A stretch of DNA of 64,000 nt from Solibacillus silvestris (GTDB lineage Bacteria; Bacillota; Bacilli; Bacillales_A; Planococcaceae). The stretch is taken from the NCBI GenBank assembly GCA_001586195.1, contig CP014609.1:3617001-3681000 (forward strand), read 5' to 3'. Shown in pieces: positions 31,356-33,155 of the stretch; position 1 is the stretch's first letter; every line of letters begins with the position of its first letter. A model generated the notes under the pieces. The model was given only the letters and a program-made list of their open reading frames with translations, did not search any database and had not been told where the DNA came from. Made by a program: the position numbers and the translations under genes.

Positions 31356-31898
31356 TTATGGCTGCTTAACATTATTACGTTCCAAATAGGCAGTATAGTT
31401 CGTCCCTTCTTTTAACGCTTTTTCCTCCAGTGGAATACGAATAGAAAGGATAATGAAATTTAAAATTGTGAAACAGATAGCTGTAAAATATGCCTGGAAC
31501 ATAAGTGGCAATACAGCAATCTCTAAACATACAACTAAATAGTTTGGGTGACGGATAAAAGAATACGGCCCCTTCGCTACTACATTTGCTCCTGGTAAAA
31601 TAATAATTTTTGTATTCCAGAAAGATCCTAATGAAACTAGACACCATACTCTTAACATCTGCAACAATAAAAATAAAATGAGCCATATATAATGCGGCGT
31701 AAACTGTCCACTGAAAAATAAGACTTCAATAAGAAGGCTTACAAAAAAGCCAGTATGCAGTACAATCATGAATGGATAATGAGAGGCACCTACTTCATAT
31801 GCTCCTTTAGCAAGCATTAATTTTTCATTTCTTTTTGCTATAACCAGCTCTACTAATCTTTGAATAATTACAAAAGCTAGTACAATATAAAAAATCAG
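31356..31898 (-). CDS. ypbQ: Isoprenylcysteine carboxyl methyltransferase family protein (YpbQ/BpsB-like)
   Basis: The first ATG (31817) gives 153 residues and lacks the first membrane helix. The frame is open further, and 27 upstream codons encode LIFYIVLAFVIIQRLVELV and then AKRNEK, the family's usual first segment. No ATG, GTG or TTG exists there; a CTG at 31898 has GGAGGG 6 bases upstream and is my preferred start (180 residues). GPYSFIRHPNYLVV is the ICMT motif. In B. subtilis the partner methylates alkylpyrones made by BcsA. The CTG begins 1 base after the bcsA stop. Confidence 0.82.
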   Translation of the reverse strand: MIFYIVLAFVIIQRLVELVIAKRNEKLMLAKGAYEVGASHYPFMIVLHTGFFVSLLIEVLFFSGQFTPHYIWLILFLLLQMLRVWCLVSLGSFWNTKIIILPGANVVAKGPYSFIRHPNYLVVCLEIAVLPLMFQAYFTAICFTILNFIILSIRIPLEEKALKEGTNYTAYLERNNVKQP

Positions 31899-31899
31899 C

Positions 31900-32982
31900 T
31901 TACTCCCTCCATTCCAATAATACGACTTCTCCGCTAAAACCTGGCCCTAGAGCCACTAGTAAACCTAAAGTATCCGCTCTTTTTTCATTTAACATAAATT
32001 GCTCCAAAACATACAGAACTGTAGGAGAAGACATGTTTCCATTTTTTTGAAGTATTTCACGTGAAACATCTGTATGTTCCGTTGTTAAATTCATTGTTTC
32101 CTCGTATGCTTGCAATACTTTTTTTCCACCAGGATGTGCTACAAAGTTTACAATTTGTTCAGGTAAAACATCGTACTTATTTAAAAACTCATGGATAAAT
32201 GGTCCAAGCCACTTTGAAATAATGACCGGTATGCTTTTTGAAAATACTACATGCAAACCGCTATTTTTTACATCCCAGCCCATTACATCTTCAGAATCCG
32301 GCATCCACTTTGAGCCACTTCCCTTAATATATGGGATTGGTACATTTTGCTCTAGCTCAACATCATCGCCGCACACGAGGGCACAAGCCGCTCCATCAGC
32401 AAATAATGAAGTACCTACGAGATTACTTTTAGAATAATCATCTTTTTGGAATGTAAGGCTACATAGTTCCACACAAACGACAAGTACCTTTGCCTTTGGG
32501 TGCGCTTTGCAATAGTCAGAAGCCCTACTAATACCTGCGGCTCCCCCTGCACAGCCTAGCCCCCATAACGGGATTCTGACTAGTTCATTTGAAAAAGGTA
32601 GAATATTCATAACACGTGCATCAATACTTGGTGTTGAAATGCCTGTACTACTAATAAAAATAATAGCATCTATATCTTCAGTAGAGATGTCCTGTTGTAA
32701 AAAGGAACGATTTGTTAAACATTTTTGAATGACTTCAACACTATACTCGGTAGCCAGTTTTATATAAAGTTCATTGCGTTCTTCAAATGTATGATCTTCA
32801 CGATACCAGTCAGGTGAAACACATAAATTTCTTGTTTTTATTTCACCATTCTCAAAAACTTTTAATAACCGTTCTAACTTTGGAATTTTATGTTGGAAAA
32901 GCTCTTTCGTCAATTGCTCAATATTCGACTGAGCTAATGCGAAAGGCGGTGTATGCGTACTTACTGAAGCGATTTTTGGAAT
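31900..32982 (-). CDS. bcsA: Type III polyketide synthase (chalcone synthase-like, alkylpyrone synthase)
   Basis: The first usual start is TTG at 32913 (337 residues) with no ribosome-binding site. An ATT at 32982 has AAGGAG 8 bases upstream and adds PKIASVSTHTPPFALAQSNI, the conserved first strand of these enzymes; a TAA lies in frame just before. I therefore take 32982 (360 residues). The catalytic triad is present: Cys144 in WGLGCAGGAAG, His in FVAHPGGKK and Asn in NGNMSSPTVLYVL. It condenses acyl-CoA with malonyl-CoA into alkylpyrones. Operon with ypbQ. Confidence 0.9.
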   Translation of the reverse strand: MPKIASVSTHTPPFALAQSNIEQLTKELFQHKIPKLERLLKVFENGEIKTRNLCVSPDWYREDHTFEERNELYIKLATEYSVEVIQKCLTNRSFLQQDISTEDIDAIIFISSTGISTPSIDARVMNILPFSNELVRIPLWGLGCAGGAAGISRASDYCKAHPKAKVLVVCVELCSLTFQKDDYSKSNLVGTSLFADGAACALVCGDDVELEQNVPIPYIKGSGSKWMPDSEDVMGWDVKNSGLHVVFSKSIPVIISKWLGPFIHEFLNKYDVLPEQIVNFVAHPGGKKVLQAYEETMNLTTEHTDVSREILQKNGNMSSPTVLYVLEQFMLNEKRADTLGLLVALGPGFSGEVVLLEWRE

Positions 32983-33155
32983 AGTAATTTCTCCTTATAT
33001 GAGTTATTTTCTTTCAATGTATTGATAAAACCAAAAAAATATACAGAAATAAATGGAATATTTATGTTATTTTTCATGAATAATAGCACTATCCATTAAC
33101 AGGACGGTGCTATTATCTTTTTTATTAATTTTTAAATGCAATTATTGAAGAACGA

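Follow-up and report, generated by a model that had tools for sequence, protein, structure and literature searches.

The bcsA-ypbQ locus of Solibacillus silvestris raises the question of whether two consecutive genes are both initiated at non-standard codons, ATT in bcsA and CTG in ypbQ, as proposed in the initial annotation. The locus lies in a 64,000-nucleotide stretch of contig CP014609.1, analysed here as a whole and referred to as the window, whose best-matching named relatives are S. merdavium and S. faecavium (86%) and S. palustris (80%), with a record under the name Lysinibacillus odysseyi MF12 matching at 82%. On the minus strand, bcsA is followed by ypbQ. The product of bcsA matches both Chal_sti_synt domains, N and C (Pfam PF00195 and PF02797; 73.6 and 71.4 bits, with a cut-off of 27), and its alignment with the solved structure of Pks11 (4jao) begins at residue 4 in both proteins, while the product of ypbQ carries an ICMT domain (Pfam PF04140; 100.8 bits, with a cut-off of 24). 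Together, the two genes probably make a sporulation-linked lipid-like compound.

Table 1. Features of the bcsA-ypbQ locus, in positions of the window.
Feature	Position	Strand	Remarks
ypbQ	31356..31898	-	isoprenylcysteine carboxyl methyltransferase family, BpsB-like; 180 aa from CTG
CTG start codon, ypbQ	31896..31898	-	1 nt beyond the bcsA stop codon
Shine-Dalgarno GGAGGG, ypbQ	31905..31910	-	within the final codons of bcsA; 6 nt to CTG
bcsA	31900..32982	-	type III polyketide synthase, alkylpyrone synthase BpsA-like; 360 aa from ATT
TTG, bcsA codon 24	32911..32913	-	earliest in-frame canonical codon; discarded as a start
ATT start codon, bcsA	32980..32982	-	start column of 110 tabulated orthologues
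Shine-Dalgarno AAGGAG, bcsA	32991..32996	-	8 nt before ATT; 7 nt from the aligned core
In-frame TAA	32995..32997	-	overlaps the bcsA Shine-Dalgarno
Promoter-like block GTATATT-N14-AATACATT	33016..33044	-	sigma-E-like; conservation in alignment
Predicted bcsA tryptic peptide, for the most part upstream of codon 24			IASVSTHTPPFALAQSNIEQLTK
Predicted N-terminal tryptic peptide, ypbQ			MIFYIVLAFVIIQR

Within the window, the arrangement described in the initial annotation was recovered for both genes. The Shine-Dalgarno of bcsA stands at the claimed distance from an ATT that is followed by no ATG, GTG or TTG before codon 24, and the in-frame TAA bars any start further upstream; likewise, the Shine-Dalgarno of ypbQ precedes CTG at the claimed distance, and the first canonical codon is the ATG at 31817 (codon 28). 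In a survey of the 56 long non-overlapping open reading frames (ORFs) of the window, with a canonical start counted as good when backed by a Shine-Dalgarno match of at least 5, 20 ORFs lacked such a start, and bcsA and ypbQ were the only ones among these 20 to display a Shine-Dalgarno-backed non-canonical codon ahead of their first canonical one. Five other ORFs in the survey also display a Shine-Dalgarno-backed non-canonical codon, but they have a good canonical start too. The Shine-Dalgarno-backed rare codons at bcsA and ypbQ are hence more than would be expected by chance.

Matches to bcsA (E 1e-60) were found in 213 of 261 genomes of the family, including all 16 genus genomes searched. One of these (G010; L046 and L053) carries a copy that a frameshift disrupts near codon 313, due to a sequencing error or to recent decay, while its ypbQ (L077) is open. 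The start column was tabulated for 110 of the 213 matches (the 16 from the genus, 14 further loci and 80 mainly top-ranked among the matches listed), a sample that covers the least similar half of the matches thinly, and reads ATG in 59, TTG in 33, ATT in 15 and GTG in 3, so that 95 of the 110 orthologues have a canonical codon at this position. The 15 ATT rows comprise 14 of the 16 genus genomes and one genome (G075) assigned to a neighbouring genus; the remaining two genus genomes show TTG. A separate scan of 35 named bcsA loci yielded four with ATT (L003, L004, L005 and L019), which were left out of the count because their letters resemble genomes already included. In all 15 ATT rows, a 6-nt Shine-Dalgarno is found at an aligned spacing of 7, and the 95 canonical rows show spacings of 5-10. 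Nine ATT rows (the window, L038-L043, L046 and L050) have no canonical codon upstream of ATT, and the next one occurs at codon 24 at the earliest; L042 lacks any before codon 40, and L043 and L050 lack any in their first 40 codons. The other six (L044, L045, L047, L048, L049 and L058) have an in-frame ATG two codons upstream (codon -2), so ATT is not strictly forced in these rows. As judged from these alignments, ATT is forced as the bcsA start in nine genomes and is the likely start in six.

The ypbQ start was scored in 109 rows, after dropping L046 because of its broken bcsA. In 74 of them the start column lies one base past the bcsA stop codon, and reads ATG (47), TTG (17), CTG (7) or GTG (3). 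Among the 109 rows, a canonical codon near this column is missing only from the seven CTG rows. Since the ypbQ gene accompanying the broken bcsA (L077) also reads CTG, this codon is present in 8 of 8 members of the window's clade, and outside this clade the column reads ATG, TTG or GTG. The window's ypbQ has GGAGG at a spacing of 7 from CTG, and the letters are identical in the other CTG rows. The second codon of ypbQ (ATT, GTT or TTT) is not a start, because it is variable. In one relative (L083, in G013), an in-frame TAA close to the end of ypbQ makes the gene slightly shorter than that of the window.

Selection on the reading frame points in the same direction. Over bcsA codons 2-23, the pN/pS ratio is 0.177 in the nine rows lacking an upstream ATG and 0.181 in nine canonical Psychrobacillus-type rows; over codons 24-300 it is 0.102 in these nine ATT rows and 0.154 in the nine canonical relatives. 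The two shifted frames over codons 2-23 yield 0.98 and 41, the latter resting on about one synonymous difference. Codons 2-23 of bcsA are under purifying selection, and this 22-codon segment ranks 12th highest in pN/pS among 95 such segments (median 0.092), being therefore less constrained than most of the gene. For ypbQ codons 2-27, the ratio is 0.223 in the seven CTG rows and 0.231 in seven other rows of the lineage. Column 0 is ATT in all 14 intact rows, and 27 of the 222 constant bcsA columns with a choice of codon keep a single one; taken alone, ATT invariance is weak evidence, because 2 of the 14 other all-isoleucine columns are equally invariant.

On a tree built from bcsA and ypbQ (24 rows, leaving out L046), the fewest changes required are two for the bcsA start codon, three for the upstream ATG and six for the ypbQ start codon, and support for the ATT rows as a single clade reaches only 70/48.6. 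Because the ATT rows are related, they represent few independent events.

The proposal of non-standard starts is strongly backed by conservation, by selection on the reading frame and by the spacing of the Shine-Dalgarno, and the comparison with orthologues that it had called for revealed the same rare codons at the same columns in other genomes. On these comparative grounds, ATT in bcsA and CTG in ypbQ are very probably the true start positions. Three other accounts of the locus fare much worse. The presence of identical codons in relatives excludes a base error at ATT or CTG and, combined with purifying selection across the gene, makes it scarcely credible that the locus reflects faulty sequencing or assembly, or gene decay, for all that a frameshifted bcsA exists in one relative (G010). 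That translation begins instead at TTG codon 24 in bcsA and ATG codon 28 in ypbQ, yielding truncated proteins, has in its favour that these are the first canonical codons in frame. This reading was rejected, and we regard it as very improbable, because the TTG is carried by 8 of the 15 ATT rows and lacking in the other 7, has no Shine-Dalgarno by the rule used in the ORF survey, and stands downstream of a segment that is under purifying selection and that aligns with Pks11 nearly from its beginning; a truncated YpbQ, in turn, would lose its hydrophobic first ~12 residues. Equally hard to credit is the generation of BcsA through a frameshift from an overlapping upstream ORF. An ORF in the +1 frame, with an ATG at -95, does overlap the bcsA start in the window and in L038, L040, L041 and L046, but it is missing from the other 13 of 18 rows (in L042, L043 and L050 the sole starts are TTG codons no further away than -35, and L059 has an ORF in the other frame), it starts upstream of the promoter-like block, and the letters following the start differ (CCAAAAAT or CCTAAAAT). 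This candidate was rejected.

A further candidate is a start elsewhere near the Shine-Dalgarno, since the ATG at codon -2 that is seen in six ATT rows also occurs in both genus TTG rows (L051 and L052). This ATG might be the true start in some relatives, with the window's clade using a changed codon there (ATT or ATC), or both positions being used, and the tree would require at least three changes in it, such as one gain and two losses. In all eight rows it reads ATGA and follows GGAG (GGGG in L052) by 2 nt. Against this reading, codon -2 sits 1 nt from the aligned Shine-Dalgarno core, far closer than in any of the 95 canonical rows, and codon -1 varies (ACT, ATT, AAT, ATC or GTC) while column 0 remains ATT. 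Furthermore, a study on Staphylococcus aureus indicates that spacing in this organism is 2-3 nt longer than in Escherichia coli, and that the better-spaced of two competing starts is preferred (PMC13009471). A start at codon -2 is thus improbable. A different kind of alternative accepts ATT and CTG as real starts and disputes their purpose: a single-base change may have been tolerated in a little-expressed gene and then inherited. One or few events suffice to account for all 15 ATT rows, and the ypbQ column drifts among ATG, TTG, GTG and CTG, both of which favour such neutral weakness. However, ATT has been retained among rows whose synonymous divergence is considerable (pS about 0.63), even though one T-to-G change would turn it into ATG, and equal constancy is seen in just 1 of 76 columns of the fourfold type (all alanine, glycine, proline, threonine or valine). 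With evidence on both sides, we give this neutral history close to an even chance.

The region upstream of bcsA bears on what the weak starts might do. Of the 18 rows from the genus and its sister, 16 carry the promoter-like block GTATATT-N14-AATACATT, or a near match, at -60 to -63; across all 110 rows the count is likewise 16. In L047 (G013) an insertion of about 190 nt separates the block from the Shine-Dalgarno and puts it at -231, and the block was not found in L052 with the pattern used. We take the block to resemble the sigma-E consensus. The rate at which the sigma-E-like pattern appears in shuffled sequences (0.0024) does not constitute an independent test, because the pattern was written after viewing the alignment, and the evidence for the block is its conservation. 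Leaders of the ATT rows fold weakly (mean of -4.30 kcal/mol, versus -6.35 for ATG and -7.19 for TTG rows), in a pattern that tracks their lower G+C content (0.29, versus 0.32 and 0.34) among rows that are related. Between the upstream gene and the promoter block, the window also contains an inverted repeat (ATAATAGCAC/GTGCTATTAT, 33080-33116), perhaps a terminator, which recurs with small changes in the eight rows of the window's clade.

Taking ATT and CTG as the starts, a mechanism can be outlined in which the sigma-E-like promoter would drive the operon in the mother cell during sporulation, and initiation would be positioned by a well-spaced Shine-Dalgarno within an A+U-rich leader that folds weakly. 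The initiator tRNA would then read AUU in bcsA and CUG in ypbQ, so that both products would begin with formyl-methionine. By analogy with S. aureus reporters for AUU and AUA, the AUU codon may keep BcsA at roughly a tenth of the level expected from AUG, and ribosomes ending bcsA may feed ypbQ, the Shine-Dalgarno of which lies in the bcsA end with CTG one base past the stop. Low expression of both genes as a result of their weak starts is plausible. The sigma-E-like promoter and the published reporters further suggest, tentatively, that weak starts would serve to restrict how much of a developmental alkylpyrone is made. Whichever the case, the locus provides two comparatively supported rare starts in a single operon, with a readable history: neighbours carry canonical codons, most of the genus has ATT, and CTG is confined to the window's clade. 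Gene finders restricted to ATG, GTG and TTG would shorten both proteins, and bcsA and ypbQ offer a concrete case for testing whether selection favours weak starts as a means of keeping a developmental metabolite at a low dose.

A known rare start with a regulatory role is that of infC, which starts at AUU and is autoregulated through IF3 in E. coli and in bacilli. The autoregulation of E. coli infC is also mentioned in the S. aureus study (PMC13009471). The infC gene of the genus likewise appears to start at ATT, in 16 of 16 genomes; another in-frame ATT precedes this codon by two codons, and an ATG follows it by four. Both infC and bcsA hence share ATT, but BcsA is an enzyme and no translation factor, and bcsA shows no evident feedback loop. 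Nothing in these comparisons points to the condition-dependent expression of the infC kind that the initial annotation suggested. Another rare start is seen just upstream of a PF03618 gene, in a gene (L185-L200) that is presumably ccpN, judging by its position; its domains also fit, with HTH_11 and CBS domains found in the one of 16 copies that was scanned. The apparent start of this ccpN-like gene is ATA in 7 and ATC in 9 of the 16 genus genomes and is preceded by GGGTGA (AGGTGA in L193), and the window's genome has an in-frame GTG three codons and a TTG six codons upstream of it. The ATT of infC and the ATA or ATC of the ccpN-like gene therefore suggest that these cells probably use such starts elsewhere. 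It is conceivable, if doubtful, that infC, the ccpN-like repressor, bcsA and ypbQ form a small translational regulon in the genus, with starts discriminated by IF3; the level of this factor, which may shift in the mother cell during sporulation, would control alkylpyrone synthesis and hence the timing of sporulation; the ATT start of infC in the genus makes this idea testable, and no more.

Conserved AUU and AUA starts are already known in the Bacillales, and what is new here is the ATT of bcsA and the CTG of ypbQ; a description of these starts in the genus was not found in the titles and abstract openings of the papers that literature searches listed. According to the S. aureus study, cvfC1 starts at AUU, and ccpN and infC at AUA, and in poor medium the reporters for AUU and AUA starts yielded about 10% of what AUG gave; the AUU site of cvfC1 showed no effect of the medium, whereas an AUA site did respond (PMC13009471). 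As described there, the S. aureus sites resemble those of bcsA and ypbQ in belonging to the same order and in combining a rare start with a Shine-Dalgarno and with conservation among relatives (PMC13009471). They differ in their extended, start-proximal Shine-Dalgarno pairing (GGAGGUGAU type), which was not seen by eye in bcsA (AAGGAGAAATTACT), where a plain 6-nt AAGGAG is found, as is GGAGG in ypbQ; inspection by eye revealed GGAGGTGG and GGGTGA in the infC and ccpN-like genes of the genus. Set against the S. aureus class, the ATT of bcsA is seen in a single genus-level lineage among the 110 of 213 matches tabulated. Beyond this order, a report on Borrelia burgdorferi describes an AUU start, shown experimentally, for BBE22 (PncA), a metabolic enzyme like BcsA; the annotated form, being shorter, misses part of the fold, a further likeness to bcsA; the evidence is experimental for BBE22 and comparative for bcsA (PMC13398362). 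Lastly, a functional parallel is provided by the bpsA-bpsB operon of B. subtilis, a two-gene type III polyketide synthase operon like bcsA-ypbQ, for which the published account reports that bpsA transcription rises in sporulation and that added alkylpyrones delay sporulation (PMC5686519).
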